DNA of 64,000 bases, from the NCBI GenBank assembly GCA_003139695.1, contig PLJM01000027.1:1-64000 (forward strand). The letters run 5' to 3'. A model generated the notes under the pieces. The model saw only the letters and a program-made list of their open reading frames with translations, searched no databases and was not told where the DNA came from. A program made the translations under genes and the position numbers. Shown in pieces: positions 6,851 through 40,221 of the stretch. The DNA comes from Candidatus Dormiibacterota bacterium (GTDB lineage: Bacteria > Chloroflexota > Dormibacteria > Dormibacterales > Dormibacteraceae). Position 1 is the first letter of the stretch. Each line of letters opens with the position of its first letter.

Positions 6851-6955
6851 CCTCACTGAAGTCAGACCAGGCGCCAACAATGCCGACCATCGCCTCGACC
6901 GTCTGTTACTGACTTTCTTACGGCAACGAACCGAGGGTGGTAAACATTATCAAGG

Positions 6956-6989
6956 AAGCCGAATAGGTTTCCGACCGCTCGGCTTTTTT
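6956..6989 (+). terminator. Intrinsic terminator/attenuator-like hairpin upstream of secreted-protein gene
   Basis: aagccga...tcggcttttttg, 15 nt before ATG at 7004. Confidence 0.5.
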
Positions 6990-7003
6990 GGGGAGTGTGT
7001 CCT

Positions 7004-7597
7004 ATGAAGAGATGGTTCGTGGTGGCATTGGTTTCGGCCGCGATGGCCCTGGTGCCCATGACGGCAGCTGCAGACGAGGGGCACGGAGACGGGCATAGCA
7101 AGGACTTCGGGCCTTTCAAGAGCTCGTCGACCGACTCCAGCACCTGCGGGAACGATTGGGCCAACGACACATTCAAGCGTGAGTTCGTCGTCCATGATTC
7201 GGGTTCCGGGTCTTGGACTGTCACCGAAAATTTCGACGACGGCCATTTCGTGACGATGACAGCAGTGAGCCCGGGTGCTTGCGAGACCAGCTCACATCAC
7301 GGCCTCCTGGTCACCGCCGGCAACAAGGGCAACTTCGAAGGCTTCCTGTCCGGATCCGTGTCAGGTGGGACGTACACTCCAAACGGCTGCAAAGCTGCGA
7401 CGGCAGACTGCACGACGACTAGCGGTTTCATCCTGGCCGTGTTCGGGCCTGCCGCCACCTATAGCTGCTTAATCAGTGGCGGGGCTTGCAGCTTCTTCTT
7501 CGACTACAAAGGCCACGGCCACGAGCTCATTTACCGCCACTGGATCAACGCTTCGGATGATCTGGGCGGCAACCGCGGGGACATCGCGACCTCGTAG
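7004..7597 (+). CDS. Hypothetical secreted protein
   Basis: Signal peptide MKRWFVVALVSAAMALVPMTAAA; Cys pairs; ORF complete. Confidence 0.6.
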   Translation: MKRWFVVALVSAAMALVPMTAAADEGHGDGHSKDFGPFKSSSTDSSTCGNDWANDTFKREFVVHDSGSGSWTVTENFDDGHFVTMTAVSPGACETSSHHGLLVTAGNKGNFEGFLSGSVSGGTYTPNGCKAATADCTTTSGFILAVFGPAATYSCLISGGACSFFFDYKGHGHELIYRHWINASDDLGGNRGDIATS

Positions 7598-7684
7598 ACG
7601 GCAAGACGGACGGAGCCGGCGGATCGTCGCCGGCTCCGCAACGCCGGTCTCCCAACCCTCTGCCCAAAAGGTGAGACGGAGCAT

Positions 7685-8272
7685 TCACACTGACAGCCGA
7701 CCCAGCGCGCCCGACTCCAGCAGCGCGCGGACCGCCCGAGCCCGATGACTGTACAAACGCTTCTCCTCCAGCCGCATCTCCCCGAACGTTTTCCCCGTGC
7801 CCGGAACCAGGAACACCGGGTCGTAGCCGAAGCCGGCCTCGCCCCGCCACTCCGGCACGATCTCCCCTCGGCACTCGCCCTCGAAGAACTGGGTTGGGTG
7901 GCCCGGATCGGCCAGCGCCAGCACGCAGACAAAGCGCGCGTTCCACGGCCGCGGCTTGCCCTCGAGCCGTTTCAGCAGCTCTGCGGTGCGCTCCTCTTGC
8001 GTCGGTCCCAGCCGCGCCGAGCGGATGCCGGGAAATCCCTCCAACGCCTCAACCTCGACCCCAGAGTCATCGCCTAACGCCGGCAGACCTGAGCGCTCAA
8101 CGGCCGTCTCCGCCTTCAACCTCGCGTTCTCCGTGTAGGTCTCCCCCACCTCGTCGATCTCGGTGTCAAACGCGATGAGCTCGAGCCCAGCACTTGCCAG
8201 CAGCTCGCGATACTCCCGCAGCTTTCCCGTGTTGCCGGTCGCGATGACCAGCTTGCGTCGCTTCTCAGCCAA
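7685..8272 (-). CDS. rdgB: XTP/dITP diphosphatase (RdgB/HAM1)
   Basis: [19 protein letters not shown]...; [22 protein letters not shown]. Confidence 0.93.
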
Positions 8273-8999
8273 GCGTAGCGATCGCGCGTTTTTGCCCGAC
8301 GATCAGCTCTTTGATTCCCTTGTGAGCCAGCGCGAGCATCGCGTCGAGCTCCTCTTTCGAGTAGGCCGCACCCTCGGCTGTCGCCTGCAGCTCGACCAGC
8401 TTTCCGTCCTCGGTCATCACGCAGTTGAGGTCGGTCGACGCCGTGAAGTCTTCCGTGTAGTCGAGGTCAAGCATCGGCGTCGCCTCCACGATGCCGCAGC
8501 TGACCGCGGCCAGGTAGTGGCGGATTGGAATCTGGTCGATCATCCGCGCATCCTTCATCCGCTTCACCGCCATGTACAGAGCGGCAAAGGCACCAGTGAT
8601 CGAAGCGGTGCGTGTGCCTCCGTCCGCCTGCAGCACGTCGCAGTCGAGCGTGATCGTCCTCTCCCCGATCTTGCCCATGTCGACCGCGGCACGAAGGGAC
8701 CGCCCGATCAGGCGCTGGATCTCATGCGTGCGGCCACCGACTCGTCCTTGGGTCGCTTCACGCGTGCCTCGATCGTGGGTCGAGCGCGGCAGCATCGAGT
8801 ACTCGGCCGTGATCCAGCCCTGGCCGCTCCCGCGGCGGTGCGGCGGGACACGGTCCTCAACGCTCGCGGTGATCCAGACGCGCGTGCGGCCCATCTCGAT
8901 GAGGCAAGAGCCTTCCGCGTGAACGTTGACCCCGAGCTCGATCTTGAGTGGGCGCAACTGATCCGGTTGACGTCCATCGGGCCGCGAATGGCCCGTCAT
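8265..8999 (-). CDS. rph: Ribonuclease PH
   Basis: [13 protein letters not shown]..., [33 protein letters not shown]. Confidence 0.95.
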
Positions 9000-29812: not shown

Positions 29813-30343
29813 ATGGAGTCATCACAAGATCTCATCTCCAGTGCCCGCATCGGGGACAAGGTCGCCTTCGAGAAGCTATTACAGCCGCACATCTCATCTG
29901 CGGCCAAGCTCGCCTACGCCATGCTTCTGGACCGAACTGAGGCTGAGGACGTCGTGCAGGAAGCTGCTCTCAGCGCGTGGAGGAGGCTCGAAAACGTTCG
30001 TGACGGCGAAGACTTCAAGCCCTGGTTCTTAGGCATCGTCGCCAACCGGTGCCGAACGGTTCGTCGAGGCTCGTGGTGGTCCGTTGTTCGTGTGGCGAGA
30101 ACGCCTATGACCCACTATCCCAGCCCAGAAGAACGACTGGTCCGCGGCGCTGATTTGCGGAGCGCCCTTGCTGTACTTTCTGCTGATCAGAGGGCAGCCA
30201 TTTTGCTGCACTTCTACCTTGACCTTCCACTTGAAGACGTCGCCAGGGCGCTCGAAATCTCAGTGGCAGGCGTGAAGTCGCGCATTAACCGAGCCCTAAA
30301 GCGTTTGCGGCCGGTCCTCCGTGCTGACGAAGAGTCGGTCTGA
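29813..30343 (+). CDS. ECF-type RNA polymerase sigma factor
   Basis: Sigma2 AEDVVQEAALSAWRRLENVRDGEDFKPWFLGIVANRCR; sigma4 LPLEDVARALEISVAGVKSRINRALKRLR. Confidence 0.92.
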   Translation: MESSQDLISSARIGDKVAFEKLLQPHISSAAKLAYAMLLDRTEAEDVVQEAALSAWRRLENVRDGEDFKPWFLGIVANRCRTVRRGSWWSVVRVARTPMTHYPSPEERLVRGADLRSALAVLSADQRAAILLHFYLDLPLEDVARALEISVAGVKSRINRALKRLRPVLRADEESV

Positions 30344-31641
30344 TGGGTATCCGGGAGGAGCTCCATGAGGCTTTCGACGGACAGGACTTCTCCAACGACG
30401 CCCTTCTAGCCCGCGTCGCGACCCAGCTGGACTCGTCGCCGTCTGCGAACAGCCATCAGTGGGCTGCCGCCATCGCGGCGATGCTGACCATCACCTTGGT
30501 CGCGACACTGTTAGTGGCTCGAGCAGTGCGTGATGGCAGCCGCGGCGCACCTACTCCAAGCGGCCGGATCAGCCAGTGCCTGCCGACGCACAACACCAGC
30601 CCCAGCTCGGGGGAGCACGGGAGCATCACTGAATACCCGGTGCCGGCGGACCTCGGGCATCTCGGGGACATCACCGGAGGACCGGATGGGAGCCTTTGGC
30701 TCATTGGTCAGGCGACAAACTCGTCGAACAGCATGATCGTCAAGCTGACGACCTCAGGCGCCTTTACCGAGTATCGGGTCCCCAGTGCCAATACGCAGAT
30801 AGGCGGGATCACAACCGGACCTGACGGCAACATTTGGTTTACCGAGACCTACATTGGCGGTCCTGCGTCAGAACCGCCGCAGGTGAATGTGGCCAAGGTA
30901 GCCAAACTCACCACGTCCGGCACATTTACGGAGTACCGCGTCCCTGGCACCGTGGCGGAGCTCGGCGGAATCATCACCGGAGCCGACTGCAACCTCTGGG
31001 TGACCGATTCAGGATCTAACAAGGTCCTCAAGGTCAGCACGTCGGGCAGCATCACGGAGTTCGCGATTCCCTCCGCAGATAGCCAGCCAGAAGCGATTAC
31101 GGCAGGCCCTGACGGGGCGCTCTGGTTCACGGAGTACTCGACAGCGAAGGTTGCCAGGGTGACCACGTCTGGCCACATCACCGAGTTTCCACTTCCAGCC
31201 ACCGGGGACTCCTTCGGATACCGGCCAAGTGGACTCGCATCAGGGCCTGACGGAAATCTATGGCTCACCGAGGAAGGCAATTGGCCGGGTGGGGGACCGG
31301 GCCAGGTGGCCAGGTTGAGCACGTCGGGGGTCTTCAGCGCTTACGGCGTTCCAACCACCAAGCTCGCTCCAGGTTTGTCGCTGTTGAGAGACACGGGGCC
31401 TCGAAACATCACAGCCGGACCGGACGGGAACCTTTGGTTTTCGGTTCTCTGGAACCTTGACAGCGTGACGACTACAGGAGTCTTCAGCCAGTACATCGTC
31501 ACGGCACCCAACGGTCAAGTCGGCGAGGTGTATTCGATGACAGCGGGGCCGGACGGCGCCATTTGGTTCACAGGAGGCGACTTCACGAGCGGCCGGCCGC
31601 TGGTCGGCAAGCTCGTTGTCAAGCCAGCATCGTCTAGCTGA
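30343..31641 (+). CDS. Single-pass membrane protein with extracytoplasmic Vgb-like beta-propeller
   Basis: Short N-terminus, TM, then repeated ITxGPDGNIWFTE...KLTTSGxFTEYRVP blades; TGATG overlap with sigma gene. Confidence 0.8.
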   Translation: MGIREELHEAFDGQDFSNDALLARVATQLDSSPSANSHQWAAAIAAMLTITLVATLLVARAVRDGSRGAPTPSGRISQCLPTHNTSPSSGEHGSITEYPVPADLGHLGDITGGPDGSLWLIGQATNSSNSMIVKLTTSGAFTEYRVPSANTQIGGITTGPDGNIWFTETYIGGPASEPPQVNVAKVAKLTTSGTFTEYRVPGTVAELGGIITGADCNLWVTDSGSNKVLKVSTSGSITEFAIPSADSQPEAITAGPDGALWFTEYSTAKVARVTTSGHITEFPLPATGDSFGYRPSGLASGPDGNLWLTEEGNWPGGGPGQVARLSTSGVFSAYGVPTTKLAPGLSLLRDTGPRNITAGPDGNLWFSVLWNLDSVTTTGVFSQYIVTAPNGQVGEVYSMTAGPDGAIWFTGGDFTSGRPLVGKLVVKPASSS

Positions 31642-31814: not shown

Positions 31815-33077
31815 CTAAGTAGCGCGCTGCGGTCGTCGGCTCCAGGCGTACTGGGCGCCGACGAGGACGATCATGAGAGCGGCGATGACCGTGAGCCACC
31901 AACTGAGCTCCGGCGACCCAATGAACGCGGGGCTGGGACCGACGATGACCCCATTCGGATCGAACAGGTCGAAGTAGTCGCCGCTCGTGATGAGCACTCG
32001 GCCGTCTTGGAGCATGATCAAAGTCGGTCCAAAGATTCCCGAGATCGGCGGCGGGCTCGGGGCGACCGTCCAGTTATTCCCAACCGGGTCATACAGCAGT
32101 ACCCGGATCCCATCGAAATTGAGTAGTTTGCCGTCCAGCATCAGCACAGCGTCACGGCCGGACGGCCCGAACGCTGTCACCGAAGGCCCACCCGGCATAG
32201 CGGTACCTGTCCGAGTGACTCCGGTCTGCAAGTCGAAGACGAAGGGAATGAGGTCGACGGGTGCTGGGACTGATTCTCCGTTGGGGGGCGCTTGGTACTG
32301 ATGCATGAACCCAACGATCTGCCCAGCCCGGTTCAGGAAGGCTGAGCTGACGACGTAACCCGTCGGTGGGAATTTCAAGGTGGACCAGGCATTCGCGCCC
32401 GGGTCGTACAGGGAGGACGGCGGCGACCCTGCGCTCGAGAAACCGCCGGTTACAAACACCCGGCCGTCTGGGAGGGTGATGGCCAGTGCAGACCCTCTGT
32501 CAACAGGCATGTTTGCTGCCTTCATCCACTTCCCAGTCGCTGGGTTGAATATCTCTGAGGAGGTAATTTCGGTCGAGGCGTTCGCGCCTCCCGCTACCAA
32601 CACACGCCCGTCGCGCAGCAGGACAGCACTTTGCATGGACCGGCTTTGGGTCATTGGCGCAACCTTGGTCCAGCTCCCGCTCGCAGGATCGAATATGAAT
32701 GCGGTATTGACGGGAACTACGGTGTTCGCCTTCAATACCCACCCGCCGGCCACGAGGACCCTGCCATCCGCCATAACGGTGACGGACGGAAAGTTAACTG
32801 CTACAGGCATGTCGGTGGCAGTGGACCACGTTGCGTGGTGCGGATCATAGATTTCGACCGTTGCCACTGGCCTGCCGTTCCTGAGGTTGCCGCCCAGAAG
32901 TAGGACGCGCCCGTCATGCATCACCACTGCCGCTTCTCCTGATCGGCTGTTCTCGTCGTGCTGGAATGAGCTCCATGAACCTTGACCCTTGAGTACCGAA
33001 GCTGGGGAGACGGCACAGGCCGATATGAAGAGCAGCATGCCCGCGATCGCGAGACGCCTCACCGGGAGAATCTCCAT
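31815..33077 (-). CDS. Kelch-type beta-propeller lipoprotein with C-terminal TM
   Basis: Lipobox LLFISAC; repeated DGRVLVAGG kelch motifs; C-terminal TM and basic tail. Confidence 0.8.
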   Translation of the reverse strand: MEILPVRRLAIAGMLLFISACAVSPASVLKGQGSWSSFQHDENSRSGEAAVVMHDGRVLLLGGNLRNGRPVATVEIYDPHHATWSTATDMPVAVNFPSVTVMADGRVLVAGGWVLKANTVVPVNTAFIFDPASGSWTKVAPMTQSRSMQSAVLLRDGRVLVAGGANASTEITSSEIFNPATGKWMKAANMPVDRGSALAITLPDGRVFVTGGFSSAGSPPSSLYDPGANAWSTLKFPPTGYVVSSAFLNRAGQIVGFMHQYQAPPNGESVPAPVDLIPFVFDLQTGVTRTGTAMPGGPSVTAFGPSGRDAVLMLDGKLLNFDGIRVLLYDPVGNNWTVAPSPPPISGIFGPTLIMLQDGRVLITSGDYFDLFDPNGVIVGPSPAFIGSPELSWWLTVIAALMIVLVGAQYAWSRRPQRAT

Positions 33078-34012
33078 CTGCCCCGAAGAGCTGTGCCCAC
33101 TAGCTCGAATGCAAGTGCCATTGCCACGACTGCGAATGCCGGCACCAAGACCGGGCCCATTTGCTTGTAGAGGATGTACCGCCGGGAAAGAGCCAGCAAT
33201 TGGCCAAGCTCGAGCTGCGTAATTATGGGAATGCTGTTGTCGCCTTGTTGAACCAGGCTCAGTACCGGGCCCAAAAAGACTTGCAGGTAACCGAGCTCAG
33301 CGAGGAGTACGAGGACAGCGCTGGCCTGAAACGCGATCTCGATCGTCAGCACCGGGCGGAGAAACGGAACCACATGGAGCTGGAAGAAGCGCAAACCACC
33401 GGTGCCCATCGCGTCCGCAGCGATCGAGAAGGGCTGCGTCCGCACTCGTTCCACGGTCTCGGCAACCAGGACCGCGATATCGCGCCAACCGATGATGGAC
33501 ATTCCCACAACGAAGGCGAACTCCTTGCCGCGAGGCGCCAGAGCTTCGATCACCACGATTGCGAGCGCAAGGTATGGAAAACCGATGATCCAGCTCCCTA
33601 TGCCGTCGCTGATGCTCGCCACCAATCGCGACCCCAGACCCATTGCGAGACCGGCAAGGAGGCCGACGACGAGCCGAGCTGCAACGACAACGGCGACCAG
33701 TTCCAGAGAAGGGATCGTGGCATGGGCGACCAGCCCGAGCAGGTCGCGGCCGCCTGGGTCCGAGCCGAGCAGGTAGAAGTGGGTGCCGGCGTTCTGAGGT
33801 GCGACTGTCCAGACGTCAACGTTTGATAACGGTCCGAACGGCGGCAACTGAGGCCCGTTCGACCCATTCACATATCCGAATGCGTAAATGCCGGTGGACC
33901 ACCACTTGGCAGGCTCGGCGAGACCGACCGCTACCAGCGCCGCCAGGGCGCCGAGGAGCCCGAAGCCGGCCACCCCTACCGATGCACGCCAGCGGCGCCG
34001 GATCCAAGTCAT
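33059..34012 (-). CDS. DppC-like ABC transporter permease
   Basis: YLLGSDPGGRDLLGLVAHATIPSLELV; EAA-like loop DAMGTGGLRFFQLHVVPFLRPVLTIEIAFQ. Confidence 0.85.
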   Translation of the reverse strand: MTWIRRRWRASVGVAGFGLLGALAALVAVGLAEPAKWWSTGIYAFGYVNGSNGPQLPPFGPLSNVDVWTVAPQNAGTHFYLLGSDPGGRDLLGLVAHATIPSLELVAVVVAARLVVGLLAGLAMGLGSRLVASISDGIGSWIIGFPYLALAIVVIEALAPRGKEFAFVVGMSIIGWRDIAVLVAETVERVRTQPFSIAADAMGTGGLRFFQLHVVPFLRPVLTIEIAFQASAVLVLLAELGYLQVFLGPVLSLVQQGDNSIPIITQLELGQLLALSRRYILYKQMGPVLVPAFAVVAMALAFELVGTALRGRWRFSR

Positions 34013-34974
34013 GCGGGGCTGATCCTGAGCTCATTGAGTCGTGGATCGAGCCACTGTTGGAGGAGCTTTGCCATCGCTTCCAAAGTCAGCAATATTGCGG
34101 CCATAGCCGCGACCAGGCCGATCGCCAGGTCAGGTTGGAAATGGCCGGCCTGGTCGGGATAAGCGATGCCGATCGCCAGCACCAGCTGCATCCCCAGCCC
34201 CGGGTAAGCGAAGAAAAACTCGACCAGCGGCAATGAACCGATCATCAATCGAAAAGAGGCGATCCAGCCAGCGGTCAGACTCGGTGCGGCGGGACGAACG
34301 ATATGGCGGTTGACGACCTGGCGCCAGGACAACCCCTTGGCCTTGGCTGTCCGTACGTGATCCTCCGCCTGCGCGTCTTGAAGCGTCAAGCGAGCTCGGC
34401 GGTACACGTATGCAGCTGGACGGATCGACAGGACGAGGGCCGCCCAGAAAGCCTGGACCGGGTCGACACTGCCGTAAGATCCGCCGACCGCAAACCCAGT
34501 TATTTGGAACACCTGGGCTTGGACCTCTTGGACCAGGACCGCAAGCAGGAAGGTCGGAAAGACCCACACCACGACGGCGGCAACGCCAACGGCGGCGAGA
34601 GGGCGTTTCTTCTGCGAAATGGTGAGGTACGCCGCTCCGAGCCCGATAGCCGTTCCGACTACGGTTCCAGCGAGCATCACGGCCAGGCTGCGTTCAGCCG
34701 CAGTGAGGATGGTTGAGGCCAGAGCGGAGGCGTTCGGGGTCTGGGCCGAGGCGCCGCTCAGAAACCCGGTTGAGGTGCGTTCAGCGTAGGTGACGACCAG
34801 CCAGGTCGCCATCAGAACGCCAGCCATCTTGAATCCGAGCGCGCTGAGGAATCCGACTCGTGCCCAGATCCGGGGAAAATGCGAAAACGCCAGGACGACG
34901 CCAAGGCTCGCGACGAGCACGAGAAGGCTGAGGTTGTACCAGAGCACCTCGCTGCCATTTTGATCCTCTGGCAA
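34009..34974 (-). CDS. DppB-like ABC transporter permease
   Basis: DHVRTAKAKGLSWRQVVNRHIVRPAAPSLTAG; LPLVEFFFAYPGLGMQLVLAI. Confidence 0.85.
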   Translation of the reverse strand: MPEDQNGSEVLWYNLSLLVLVASLGVVLAFSHFPRIWARVGFLSALGFKMAGVLMATWLVVTYAERTSTGFLSGASAQTPNASALASTILTAAERSLAVMLAGTVVGTAIGLGAAYLTISQKKRPLAAVGVAAVVVWVFPTFLLAVLVQEVQAQVFQITGFAVGGSYGSVDPVQAFWAALVLSIRPAAYVYRRARLTLQDAQAEDHVRTAKAKGLSWRQVVNRHIVRPAAPSLTAGWIASFRLMIGSLPLVEFFFAYPGLGMQLVLAIGIAYPDQAGHFQPDLAIGLVAAMAAILLTLEAMAKLLQQWLDPRLNELRISPA

Positions 34975-34983
34975 TCAAATGGC

Positions 34984-35064
34984 TGACCCTCACATCACTC
35001 CGATTTCGGGGGCGATTGGGTGCGCGGAGAGGATGCATTGGTCAGCCTTGACCTGGAAATGGAC
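34984..35064 (+). repeat. Boundary repeat R2 copy a (~81 bp)
   Basis: tgaccctcacatcactccgatttcgg...ggtcagccttgacctggaaatggac, near-identical to 40269-40349. Confidence 0.88.
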
Positions 35065-35227
35065 CCTTCCCAGTTAAGTGGTCTCCGCCGAAATCGGCTT
35101 GGAGGGCTAAAGATCAGGTCCAATTCGCCAGGGATCGAAGACCACTTGGTCAGGAAAGGCGTTGGCTCCGGAATGGATGTCGAGTCGGTGGCTGTTACCC
35201 GAGCCGCCAGCGGTGCGTTACGTCGAC

Positions 35228-35650
35228 ATGCGTGCGTGGCTATGGTTCGCGGCAATCGGGATTATGGCGATTTCTTGCACCCAGTCTGCCGCGGCCGCGG
35301 GGCTCGTCCGTGATGGCGCGACCAGCGTACTAATCCAACAGTACGGGGGCCTCAACGATCAGCCTCCTCTTGGCTTAGTGGCATCGATTCATGTCAGCGA
35401 TTCATCACAAATCAGCCAGCTTGTACACGAGCTGAACACTCTCCCGGCATATCCGAGCGGCACAATGTTCTGCCCGATGGATGATGGCTCGCACTTTGCT
35501 TTGGCTTTTGCCTACGTAGATAGAACGACCACCATGGTTAAGGTGGACGCGAGGGGCTGTCAGGCCGTGTACGTTGGGGGATCGAAGCACCCGGCAGCCT
35601 GGGCCGCCAAGTCGCCTGAATTATTTGACACGCTGAGGGGACTGCTGTGA
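35228..35650 (+). CDS. Hypothetical secreted protein
   Basis: Signal peptide MRAWLWFAAIGIMAISCTQSAAAA; start approximate. Confidence 0.5.
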   Translation: MRAWLWFAAIGIMAISCTQSAAAAGLVRDGATSVLIQQYGGLNDQPPLGLVASIHVSDSSQISQLVHELNTLPAYPSGTMFCPMDDGSHFALAFAYVDRTTTMVKVDARGCQAVYVGGSKHPAAWAAKSPELFDTLRGLL

Positions 35651-36018
35651 GCTCAGGTAGGTCAGCATCGCTCGCCGCGGCGGTGGTCGCGGCCACCTTC
35701 TTGGCGGCTTGTACGACTCCTTTCGGCGCCGCGCCTGGTATCCACATAGAAAACATCGACGGGCCCGCCGTCCGCGTCGTGCCGTGGAGTGGCGCCCCTT
35801 CCGTCATCGCGGCTTGCGGTAGCGGCACTGATGTGTCGCTAAAGGGGGCGCCACCCCTTCCGTGGGAGTTCAGAATCTACGATGCGACCACGGACCGACA
35901 GCTGTTCTCGAAATCACTCAGCTCTAAAACTCTGTACGTGATAGTGCGAGCTGACGGGGTCCTATGGGGAACAGAGCCTGGCAGCGGTGGACCGGCTCCG
36001 ATCAGGGGTTGTCATTGA
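35647..36018 (+). CDS. Hypothetical lipoprotein
   Basis: GTG start overlapping upstream stop; lipobox FLAAC. Confidence 0.5.
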   Translation: MSSGRSASLAAAVVAATFLAACTTPFGAAPGIHIENIDGPAVRVVPWSGAPSVIAACGSGTDVSLKGAPPLPWEFRIYDATTDRQLFSKSLSSKTLYVIVRADGVLWGTEPGSGGPAPIRGCH

Positions 36019-36141
36019 ACCCCAGAAAATTGTGACGGACCACGGGGGCTAGGTCGTCCCGGCGCTTCAACCCTGGAAGGAATGGCTGTTGCAGTGGACA
36101 CCACCGCCTATCTGCAGCGGTTGACGCGGTCGCCTGCCGGG

Positions 36142-36522
36142 TCATCCACCTCGCGTGCCCGGTCGGCGTCGGAACAGCCACGTCCGTAGACCGATCTCGG
36201 CGCCCGCAAGCGCAATTACAGGCACTAGAAAGGCAAGGGCATACAGTTCGCCAGTCATGGGATCTGCGGCTACGCAGGAGGGAGGCTTGCAGCTCGTCAA
36301 CTGCTGAGCTATGACGGCTGCCCAAACCAATCCAAATCCAATTACCAAGCCGCCTGCTGCGGCTGCAATCAGAGGCGCCCTAATCGGGAGGCGCCAAGCC
36401 AAGACGAGGATACCGATCGCACATAGCAACACGAGAATCCCAACCGGGGACGCCGCCTCAAGCGCGAGCAGCCCATAAATTGCACCAACACCGCCAGCGA
36501 GTACCAGCGTTCGTGCCCACAC
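36142..36522 (-). CDS. Hypothetical membrane protein
   Basis: Multiple TM segments. Confidence 0.45.
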   Translation of the reverse strand: MWARTLVLAGGVGAIYGLLALEAASPVGILVLLCAIGILVLAWRLPIRAPLIAAAAGGLVIGFGLVWAAVIAQQLTSCKPPSCVAADPMTGELYALAFLVPVIALAGAEIGLRTWLFRRRPGTRGG

Positions 36523-36823
36523 GATGGGTCTGAGTCTATGCGGGTCGATGTAGCCGTATCGGCTTCAGAAAGGTTCTGGTACGTGCTCGGCTGGGATCGT
36601 TGACGGTTGCCGGGACCTACTTGGACGGCTAGAAACGTCTTGAGACGTTTTGGCGGTCCTCTGTAAGGGGACCCGGTCAGTGTGGGGCCAGTGGGTTGGG
36701 CTGCCCAGTCGTCCCCTAGCTCGAGGCGCCAAGGAGGACGTCGTCGGCGATGCGGCGCCGCCCCCGGTCAGCTTTCTCCGCGCTTGGTGTCATCGTGGCC
36801 AAGGAGACCAGTTCCGGCGCGAC

Positions 36824-36880
36824 GTTGGTGGGCGGTGATGGATTGGAGACGCCTCTGACAGACTCGCTCAGGCTGATCGT
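36824..36880 (+). repeat. Boundary repeat L1 copy c
   Basis: gttggtgggcggtgatggattggagacgcctctgacagactcgctcaggctgatcg. Confidence 0.85.
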
Positions 36881-36941
36881 GGGACCATCGCACGAGCCTG
36901 GTCCGCCACCCAGGTGCGAGCCCAGTGGGCCGAATTGAGGC

Positions 36942-37892
36942 GTGGAGCAGTCCCGGGCTCAGAATGAGCTTGCCGTGCTGTGGGTAAACCTAGGCTTAGT
37001 TGGCCTGATCGTCGCGGCGACCATTGGTCTGATCTCGATCCGGGCGCCGCAACTGGTTCCAGCCGGAAGGATCTTCGCCACTCTCGCACTTCAGATCAGC
37101 GGTGTGCTGGTGGTCACTTGGTTTCTGGTAGCGCGAGGTCAGACGCAGGCAGCGTCGCTGCCTCCTCCTCCAGCGGCGGAGGCGGCGATCTGGACAAGCG
37201 TTGCGGGTCCAGCTGTCGCCTCGCTGGAGCTGGTGTTGGTCTCGGTGGTTTTGGGTACATGCATTGGGACCGCTACTGCCGCCCTGGTGGCGTGGTCGCG
37301 GTCGTCGTGGCTCGAGCTGCTGGTCGGAGTTGGCAGCCTGGTCTGGATCATCCCCACCTTCTTGCTTGCGATTCTGATCCAAGACTTGCAGTCGACCATT
37401 TATGGCCTCACTGGCACCAGAGTGTCCGGTGGTTATGGCACTGCGAGCGTCGGACAACTCCTATGGAGCGCGGCCGTGCTTTCGATCCGACCTGCGGCCT
37501 ACGCCTTTCGGCAAGGCAATCTGCTCATCTCCGACCAATCCCGCGCAAACCACGTTCGGACTGCCTTTGCCAAAGGCCTGCCATGGCGCACTATCGTCGC
37601 TCGCCACATAATCCGGCCGACAGCCTCAGGCTTGGTACAAACAACAGCGAGCTCGATTCGACTGATGTTCGGGTCGCTCCCGCTAGTCGAGTTCTTCTTC
37701 GCGTATCCGGGTCTTGGACAGCTCTTGCTGTTGTCGCTCGGCGTTAACTACGGTACTTCGACACAGCCTCCCAACCCTTCCGTGGCGATCGCGTCGGCAG
37801 TTCTGCTCGCGTGCATGCTGGCCGTGATCGAAGCGCTGGCGAGGGTACTCACTGTGCGATTCGATCCGCGCCTTGCCGAGGCTGCAGCGTGA
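36942..37892 (+). CDS. DppB-like ABC transporter permease (paralog of 34009-34974)
   Basis: NHVRTAFAKGLPWRTIVARHIIRPTASGLVQ; SLPLVEFFFAYPGLGQLLLLSL. Confidence 0.85.
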   Translation: MEQSRAQNELAVLWVNLGLVGLIVAATIGLISIRAPQLVPAGRIFATLALQISGVLVVTWFLVARGQTQAASLPPPPAAEAAIWTSVAGPAVASLELVLVSVVLGTCIGTATAALVAWSRSSWLELLVGVGSLVWIIPTFLLAILIQDLQSTIYGLTGTRVSGGYGTASVGQLLWSAAVLSIRPAAYAFRQGNLLISDQSRANHVRTAFAKGLPWRTIVARHIIRPTASGLVQTTASSIRLMFGSLPLVEFFFAYPGLGQLLLLSLGVNYGTSTQPPNPSVAIASAVLLACMLAVIEALARVLTVRFDPRLAEAAA

Positions 37893-38863
37893 GCAACAGC
37901 CGCATCCGGCGCCTGGTCCTCCTGGCCTTAGCGATCGCATTGCTGGCGACTCTTGCAATCTTCGTGGTTGTCGGCTTGAGAATTCCTGACCTGTGGGCCA
38001 CCCAGGTCTGGGCGGGGGGCTTTATTCGTGGGACGGTGACTCTGCCTCCGTTTCCCGCTCTCAGCACCGTCGACGTCTTTTCTTCCGATAACACGCCAAT
38101 CCATGACTCGCATTTCTATCTGTTCGGTTCCGACGCCGGCGGGCGAGATCTACTCGCGGTGACCTCGCGAGCGGTGGTGCCTTCACTAGAGCTCGTCGTT
38201 CTTGCACTGATTGGACGCATGGTCCTGGGCATAGGCGCCGGCTTCCTGATCGCCACCGGGACCGAGCCGCTGAGAACCATCGCCAGGTCGGCCGGCGGGT
38301 GGATCGCTGGATTCCCGTACCTGGCGCTGGCGGTTCTGGTGATCCAATCGTTCACGGGCGGGCCCAGTACGGTGGCCGTTCCTGGGCCTACGCGCTTGAT
38401 AGGTTTTGTGGTAGCGATTGCGGTCGTCGGCTGGCGCGACGTTGCTGAGCTCGTCGCTTCAAGACTGCAGTGGGTCAACGCTCAGGAGTTTGCTCTGGGA
38501 GCTCGGGCGATCGGCTCGAGCGGCCTTGGCTTCTTTCGCAGGCACGCCTGGCCTTACCTCCGCCAGGCACTGACGGTCGAGCTTTCGTTCCAGGCTAGTG
38601 CTGTTCTTGTTCTACTGGCTGAGCTGGGATTTCTCCAGTACTACTTGGGTGGATTCACGCAACTGTTTGAGCAGGGAGGAGTGCCGTCTTTCCAGCTGGC
38701 CACCCAGCCGGAGCTCGGCCAGATGATGTCAGATGTTCGGCTGTACCTCTTGAGGCAGGAGCTTGGACCCGCGTTGGTGCCGGCGCTGGCCCTCGCCCTG
38801 GCTGCCCTTTCGTTCGAGCTTCTGGGCCGAGGTCTGCGAGGCAGGACGGACTTTCGCACATGA
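37889..38863 (+). CDS. DppC-like ABC transporter permease (paralog of 33059-34012)
   Basis: YLFGSDAGGRDLLAVTSRAVVPSLELV; RAIGSSGLGFFRRHAWPYLRQALTVELSFQ; GTG start overlaps DppB stop. Confidence 0.85.
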   Translation: MSNSRIRRLVLLALAIALLATLAIFVVVGLRIPDLWATQVWAGGFIRGTVTLPPFPALSTVDVFSSDNTPIHDSHFYLFGSDAGGRDLLAVTSRAVVPSLELVVLALIGRMVLGIGAGFLIATGTEPLRTIARSAGGWIAGFPYLALAVLVIQSFTGGPSTVAVPGPTRLIGFVVAIAVVGWRDVAELVASRLQWVNAQEFALGARAIGSSGLGFFRRHAWPYLRQALTVELSFQASAVLVLLAELGFLQYYLGGFTQLFEQGGVPSFQLATQPELGQMMSDVRLYLLRQELGPALVPALALALAALSFELLGRGLRGRTDFRT

Positions 38864-40221
38864 AACCCGCTGCCGGCACGCTCCTCTTTATGGCGTCCAC
38901 GCTGTCCGCGTGCAGCCTAAGTTTTGGCACCGTCGGCACCTGGTCGAACGAAGCGCCGCCACCGGCCTCGCTCCAGGGGACCAGTTCAGTAGTTATGCCC
39001 GACGGCGAGGTCGTATTCCTAGGCGGCTTCGACGCGCGAACAGGACAGCCGCTCAACCAAGTGCTCCGGTTCGATCCCAAGGACAGTCGATGGAGTCAGG
39101 GTGCGTCGATGCCCGTCCAGGAGATCGGATATTCGATTGTGGCGTTGCAGAATGGCTTGGTCCTAGCAGCGGGCGGCGGAGGGGCGGGCGGTGGGGTGAG
39201 CGTCCTTCCGATTGCGGGCGGTGGAGGCACCGGAGGTGGAAATGGCCTTCTGGCCACCACCTGGCTCTACAGCCCGCAACTCAATACATGGAAGAGGGCA
39301 GGGAACCTGAATGTCGCGCGTTCTGACGCCGCCGCTGTGCTGTTGACAGACGGTCGGGTGCTGATCGCCGGAGGAGACGTGCCTCTTGCGACCCCTATTC
39401 AGCTTCCCGACGGCAGTACCGACTCATTTGGATTCAGCGCCAGCGCGGAGACATTCGACCCTCAAACCAACTCGTGGAGCCTGGTTGGCTCGCTGCATGT
39501 TGCCCGCGGCGGCATGGCTTTGCTGGCTTTGCCACAAGGAAAGGCGCTGGCAGCGGGCGGATGTGCTTTCGCGAACCAGGGAATCATCGCCGGGGGTGCC
39601 CTCACCAGTTCCGAGGTGTTCGACCCAATCACCGCCGCCTGGACCGTGACGGCTCCGCTGCCGGAACCCCGGTGCGGTGCAGACGGCCTTCGGTTGCGTG
39701 ACGGGCGCGCGCTGCTGACGGGGGGTTCAATATCCAACCTCCAGCAGGAGGGACCAGTCACTAATGCATTTCTTTATGACGAGCAGAAGGACGCTTGGAC
39801 CACGACAGGTTCCACAGTTCCGGGGTCATCTCCACCGATCCTCCTGGCTGATGGGCGGATCTTCGTGGCCGCCATGCAGATCGGTCAGATGCAGGGCAAT
39901 ACCGCGTCACTGGTCGTGGGGGGACAGATATTCGACCCGGCTTCCGATGATTGGAGCTTCGCCACCAGCACGTCGGCTCAGGTCTCGAGTCGATTCGCAC
40001 AGGCGGAGGCGCCCAGGGTCGTGGCACAATCCGATGCCACTGCCGTTGTTCTTCTAGCGTATGCAGGCCGTGCTTTCATCTTTAATCCTTCGGGCAATCC
40101 ACCACCTGGGCTGATCCTGGACAGCTCGGGCCTCGCGTTGGTCTTAGCTGCCCTAGCAGCCGCGTTGTGTTTGTGGCTGGCAATCCATTACGTCGTAGAT
40201 CGAGTGCATAACGGCGCTTGA
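38860..40221 (+). CDS. Kelch-type beta-propeller lipoprotein with C-terminal TM (paralog of 31815-33077)
   Basis: Lipobox TLSAC; DGRVLIAGGD and related blades; C-terminal TM; ATGA overlap with DppC. Confidence 0.8.
   Translation: MKPAAGTLLFMASTLSACSLSFGTVGTWSNEAPPPASLQGTSSVVMPDGEVVFLGGFDARTGQPLNQVLRFDPKDSRWSQGASMPVQEIGYSIVALQNGLVLAAGGGGAGGGVSVLPIAGGGGTGGGNGLLATTWLYSPQLNTWKRAGNLNVARSDAAAVLLTDGRVLIAGGDVPLATPIQLPDGSTDSFGFSASAETFDPQTNSWSLVGSLHVARGGMALLALPQGKALAAGGCAFANQGIIAGGALTSSEVFDPITAAWTVTAPLPEPRCGADGLRLRDGRALLTGGSISNLQQEGPVTNAFLYDEQKDAWTTTGSTVPGSSPPILLADGRIFVAAMQIGQMQGNTASLVVGGQIFDPASDDWSFATSTSAQVSSRFAQAEAPRVVAQSDATAVVLLAYAGRAFIFNPSGNPPPGLILDSSGLALVLAALAAALCLWLAIHYVVDRVHNGA

Follow-up and report, generated by a model that had tools for sequence, protein, structure and literature searches.

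What does a kelch beta-propeller do beside an orphan pair of peptide-type ABC permeases? The question is raised by a 64-kb stretch of DNA (the window) with two paralogous operons that point away from each other at a distance of about 2 kb. Each encodes a DppB-like permease (B), a DppC-like permease (C) and a kelch protein (K), in the order B1-C1-K1 on the reverse strand, from 34974 down to 31815, and B2-C2-K2 on the forward strand, 36942-40221. ABC importers of the Opp/Dpp class are taken to need a venus-flytrap substrate-binding protein (SBP), and SBPs occur as separate lipoproteins or fused. Neither an SBP gene nor an ATPase gene was found in the window, in agreement with a preliminary description of this locus, which had suggested that the propeller may act in place of the SBP and that a shared ATPase is encoded elsewhere. 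Here, we follow both suggestions through the source genome and its relatives.

Results

Two operons of overlapping genes

The features of the two operons are as follows.

34009..34974, reverse strand: B1, DppB-like permease of the kelch-linked subfamily (PF00528, 2.6e-20; topology and alignment)
34285..34377, reverse strand: EAA/coupling loop of B1, DHVRTAKAKGLSWRQVVNRH, predicted ATPase contact (alignment to canonical DppB of the same genome and of E. coli, with the equivalent of E. coli K243 retained)
33059..34012, reverse strand: C1, DppC-like permease with an enlarged first extracytoplasmic loop (NCBIfam Opp2C, 2.9e-17, under the equivalog cut-off)
31815..33077, reverse strand: K1, kelch beta-propeller lipoprotein with ISAC lipobox, C-terminal TM and basic tail (Kelch_6, 5.8e-30)
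36942..37892 (possible start 36975), forward strand: B2, DppB-like permease, paralogue of B1 (PF00528, 2.4e-13)
37533..37625, forward strand: EAA/coupling loop of B2, NHVRTAFAKGLPWRTIVARH (alignment)
37889..38863, forward strand: C2, DppC-like permease, paralogue of C1 (alignment; NCBIfam Opp4C, 6e-16, under the equivalog cut-off)
38860..40221, forward strand: K2, kelch beta-propeller lipoprotein with LSAC lipobox and C-terminal TM (Pfam Kelch_6, 9.3e-24)

The start codon of B1 is uncertain, its relatives starting at MLWxNL, and a longer C2 reading frame from 37811, which overlaps B2, is unlikely. Identity between the two operons amounts to 39% for B, 47% for C and 27% for K. Within each operon the genes overlap, by ATGA at B1/C1 and C2/K2, by GTGA at B2/C2 and by 19 nt at C1/K1. 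The overlap of both kelch genes with the DppC-like gene had been reported correctly; the term "genetically fused" is wrong for the window and applies to two relatives, G093 and G020, in which true fusions occur. A scan for promoters and terminators returned sites no more numerous than in shuffles.

Several other genes lie close by. A pair of genes that is convergent with K1 adjoins it (29813-31641). The first encodes an ECF sigma factor (176 aa), the second a protein of 432 aa that combines a short N-terminal part, a single TM and a propeller of the Vgb-lyase type, a layout like that of an anti-sigma factor with a propeller sensor. No such pair was seen beside the other B-C-K triads. Small ORFs occupy the space between the operons (35162-36522): two on the forward strand, one of them with a lipobox-like start and neither with a Pfam match, and one on the reverse strand that encodes a membrane protein. 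Just beyond K2 lies a tRNA-Val gene (40577-40651, reverse strand), overlapped by a listed ORF of 83 aa (40549-40800) that is probably not a gene.

The kelch proteins are tethered propellers

K1 and K2 match several Pfam kelch families above cut-off, and in the whole 3.3 Mb assembly (34 contigs) Kelch_6 matches these two proteins only. The lipoboxes and kelch repeats described before are confirmed. As for the C-terminal TM with basic tail, the TM is present in both proteins, but the tail is clear in K1 (three K/R) and weak in K2 (one K/R). All complete stand-alone K proteins, i.e., those of the triads, of a contig labelled Acidobacteria and of the upstream kelch gene of G093 (see below), have a C-terminal TM, to which most add a basic tail, and 8 of the 11 carry a lipobox.

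The AF2 model of K1 is a propeller (pLDDT 82.5, mostly above 90 in the blades) with a C-terminal helix; its Foldseek matches are the kelch domains of KLHL/Keap1 proteins and GlxA. We also considered a kelch enzyme of the GlxA/galactose oxidase or NanM kind and rejected it: K1 reaches 60 bits against the GlxA model (cut-off 800) and 44 bits against the NanM model (cut-off 416), too weak for membership in either family, and no catalytic signature was recognised. K proteins of different lineages are merely 25-39% identical and their invariant residues are mostly structural, so that a ligand site cannot be named. When kelch rows were aligned jointly with permease rows they spread over the permease, and this joint alignment was dropped.

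The permeases keep the inner face of the Dpp/Opp family

B1 and B2 are strong BPD_transp_1 matches in Pfam, C1 matches PF00528 at 3.6e-4, under the cut-off, and C2 has no Pfam match. All four match NCBIfam Opp/Dpp models, far under the equivalog cut-offs, and the best profile matches of B and C among solved structures are the DppB/DppC/OppB/OppC importers (PDB 8z1v, 8wd9, 8z21, 8j5q). With these reservations about C1 and C2, each operon encodes the two BPD_transp_1 permeases with EAA coupling loops that mark Dpp/Opp systems. The cytoplasmic coupling loops are kept, and the permease motifs SLPLVEFFFAYPGLG and GSDxGGRD are conserved. K243 of DppB forms a salt bridge to DppD; 11 of 12 B proteins of the kelch-linked subfamily (k-B; the C proteins are termed k-C) have K or R at the equivalent position of the alignment.

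The segment from TM1 to just before TM2 comprises 10-25 residues in all 12 k-B, versus 51-58 in canonical DppB (six of the same genome and that of E. coli). The missing stretch includes the region of the scoop motif, residues 32-62 of E. coli DppB, which inserts into the cleft of DppA and fills it (PMC12136057). Since deletion of the scoop in E. coli impairs the transporter without abolishing its function (PMC12136057), scoop loss alone is no proof of SBP loss. PF19300, found in 5/5 canonical B of the same genome, is absent from all k-B scanned, and OppC_N, found in 5/5 canonical C (in one under its cut-off), is absent from all k-C scanned. The first outer loop of k-C is about 20 aa longer than the canonical one in 10 out of 10 cases (47 aa in C1 versus 22-30 aa in canonical DppC). 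The k-B proteins further possess an extra N-terminal TM (TM0) followed by K/R, and these positive residues suggest that it would put the N-terminus of B outside. Taken together, the retained coupling loops on the ATPase side, the lost scoop and the longer loop of C indicate, as a reading of the sequences, that the inner (ATPase) interface is conserved and the outer (SBP) interface rebuilt.

The triad recurs in a narrow group of bacteria

We searched 110 genomes of the class, including the source genome (G000), for the subfamily with C and B. Nine genomes contain k-B, with 12 B genes in total, and G039 was added via a C fragment at a contig end. Every one of the 12 B genes is located beside a kelch gene (10) or is fused to one (2: G093 and G020). 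The order B-C-K is found twice in the window and at eight loci in six relatives (G021, G022, G092, G096, G098 and three times in G108). Genes flanking the triads differ between lineages, and among the neighbours examined at the other triads no SBP gene and no Dpp-type ATPase was recognised. Recurrence of the triad without an ATPase or SBP of its own, for which the preliminary description had looked to a neighbourhood survey, is supported. Near one G108 copy, an ABC-2 type transporter on the opposite strand looks unrelated.

A thirteenth B-C pair, with a kelch gene divergent beside it, comes from the contig labelled Acidobacteria (MNJR01000014.1). Its C reaches 62% identity with C1 in the best segment and its B is partly garbled in the alignment; the contig is possibly misbinned and from the same bacterial group, or possibly the result of transfer. 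Seven loci emerged when 85,488 genomes were scanned with a pattern, six under the title Chloroflexi and one under Acidobacteria, and a 399-genome sample of the phylum, searched with a strict threshold, gave nothing beyond the relatives already known. Most relatives with a named record are soil MAGs, again under the title Chloroflexi. The distribution is narrow, namely soil Chloroflexota MAGs.

Kelch and permease are fused in two families

In G093 (L085:3793-5913, 707 aa) and G020 (L061:3659-5896, 746 aa), which belong to two different families, kelch and B form a single open frame: a signal-like N-terminal segment, kelch repeats and then BPD_transp_1 (Pfam, several kelch families). Pfam detects no SBP family in these proteins, whose outer domain consists of kelch repeats. 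The fused copies are without lipobox and would reach the membrane via the first TM of B, in line with the additional TM at the N-terminus of the subfamily. AF2 modelled the fusion poorly (pLDDT 52.8), and the model was unusable for judging docking. The C reading frame of G020 is broken in the assembly. In G093, further kelch genes flank the fusion and the C gene (L085:2408-3736 and 6896-8554), the upstream copy with a C-terminal TM and the downstream copy with none.

B, C and K diverge together under purifying selection

Distances of B, C and K are correlated over 11 loci (Mantel r 0.90-0.93, permutation p <= 0.002), and without two near-duplicates r is 0.79-0.81 (p <= 0.002). Two genomes contribute more than one copy (two or three paralogues), which weakens confounding by the species tree. 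All three genes are under purifying selection: in two genome pairs, dN/dS is about 0.10-0.17 for the two permeases and 0.27-0.32 for K. K is the faster-evolving protein, which would suit a domain that faces outward to a ligand. Recurrence, fusions and co-divergence rule out a chance neighbourhood, and we consider it likely that K, B and C are one system.

ATPases and SBPs elsewhere in the genome

The genome encodes 12 oligo_HPY ATPases in six canonical loci, i.e., six DppD/DppF pairs, all with their own permease pairs. Hence, no free ATPase pair is seen, and no stand-alone ATPase gene was found in the genome. Of the shared ATPase proposed earlier, the genome-wide search thus upheld that DppD/DppF-type ATPases are present and revealed that each is already provided with permeases. 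Supply in trans is assumed, as none of the triads has a recognised Dpp-type ATPase gene next to it.

Next to the triads, no SBP_bac_5 gene was recognised. Ten such genes exist in the genome, of which two stand alone with context (C33:245 kb and C32:6 kb) and a third orphan (C34) is separated from a contig end by about 1.4 kb. A dedicated SBP elsewhere was tested with two orphans and rejected, since neither is co-distributed with the triad: one occurs in 25 of the 110 genomes, among them only three triad genomes (G000, G092 and G098). The second is present in 55 of 110, spread over f1 and f4, and these include G031, which is of the same genus and without triad. An SBP or ATPase operon co-evolving with these permeases, named before as the finding that would speak against a role of the propeller, did not come to light in either respect, neither as a Dpp-type ATPase among the neighbours examined nor as a co-occurring orphan SBP. 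The system is derived from the Dpp/Opp family, yet has no recognised SBP or ATPases of its own and lacks the N-terminal domains by which that family is recognised.

Discussion

The loss of the scoop, the two kelch-permease fusions and the co-divergence point to the propeller in the place of the SBP, and so lend this earlier proposal partial support. As the best single mechanism, which we consider about evenly balanced between right and wrong, we propose an Opp/Dpp-derived importer in which a tethered kelch propeller would replace the SBP. Each operon would encode the membrane part of a type I ABC importer. The propeller would be located outside, tethered by an N-terminal lipid in most copies and by the C-terminal TM; in the fused form, the additional first TM of B would hold it. 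There it would bind a ligand or carrier and pass it on to the B-C channel, in which the SBP-docking scoop is gone and the outer loop of C enlarged. ATP would be hydrolysed in trans by one of the six DppD/DppF-type pairs, presumably acting through the retained coupling loops. Physical docking, the direction of transport and the sharing of an ATPase are what we infer from sequence comparison.

Four other readings seem unlikely in increasing degree. The triad could be a sensing complex, in which the propeller binds an extracellular cue and B-C relays it with a borrowed ATPase or none, no substrate being moved. The ECF sigma factor and the anti-sigma-like propeller protein adjoining K1 are in agreement with this, as is the missing ATPase. 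However, the neighbours examined at other loci include no evident signalling partner, which places the sigma factor outside the conserved unit, and coupling loops and both permease motifs are conserved as in an energised channel; we regard sensing as improbable.

Slightly less probable still is a device for export or envelope assembly, in which B-C and a borrowed ATPase would export or release a molecule for the propeller to receive, modify or place in the envelope. In its favour, one Opp/Dpp family member bears the name putrescine exporter (SapBC models, matched weakly), there are enzymes among kelch proteins, and K1 weakly resembles the GlxA and YjhT/NanM models, with GlxA among its Foldseek matches. 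Against it, B and C match importers best, the invariant residues of K are nearly all structural, no enzyme site is visible and no biosynthetic genes are conserved beside the triads.

We give even less credence to an ordinary peptide importer that obtains SBP and ATPases in trans and has the kelch protein as an accessory, be it regulator, chaperone or anchor. The stand-alone SBP_bac_5 genes would provide for it, but the tested ones do not track the triad, and the scoop that contacts the SBP is absent from every one of the 12 B measured. Most improbable is that the triads are dpp operons in decay, next to kelch genes that have nothing to do with them. The missing ATPase and SBP genes and the weak Pfam scores of C might suggest this, but it is contradicted by the dN/dS values of B, C and K as well as by conserved order, fusions and co-divergence.

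Returning to the importer with a kelch receptor, we found no published description of a system of kelch protein and ABC permease in the literature searched. There is a little less than an even chance that it is the first family of ABC transporters whose venus-flytrap SBP has been replaced, after scoop loss, by a kelch beta-propeller, separate or fused to the permease. If true, the flytrap receptor is replaceable in ABC importers of this class while the ATPase interface is kept, the list of receptor folds is extended, and a natural system is at hand for asking what scoop and SBP really do. ATPase-less dppBC pairs may then be live systems, which is a warning to annotators.

Comparison with known systems

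Like the triads, the Dpp/Opp importers (DppBC, OppBC) pair two distinct BPD_transp_1-fold permeases that carry EAA coupling loops; the DppC-type GSDxxGRD motif is common to both. Unlike them, the kelch operons have no SBP or ATPase genes, no scoop, no PF19300 and no OppC_N; they have instead an extra N-terminal TM in B, a longer outer loop in C and a kelch protein as fixed partner. With GlxA/galactose oxidase and the NanM/YjhT mutarotases, K has the kelch propeller fold in common. It differs from these enzymes in that model matches are weak and no catalytic site is recognised, and in its C-terminal TM and its linkage to a permease.

A non-flytrap outer partner is also known from Mce systems. 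These are powered by MceG (PMC9947336), and MsiK and MsmK are ATPases shared between importers (PMC6167110, PMC4519317). Permease operons without ATPase are thus common to all these systems and the triads, theirs being powered by an ATPase encoded elsewhere; here, in contrast, no stand-alone ATPase gene was found and sharing would be with one of the six dpp operons. GlnPQ and OpuA are type I importers with an SBP fused to the permease (PMC8025302, PMC11065425). The fusions of G093 and G020, though not the separate genes of the window, similarly join an extracytoplasmic domain to the transmembrane domain, a parallel that holds if the kelch domain is the receptor. The fused domain of GlnPQ and OpuA is a venus-flytrap SBP, whereas that of the kelch-B proteins is a kelch propeller.
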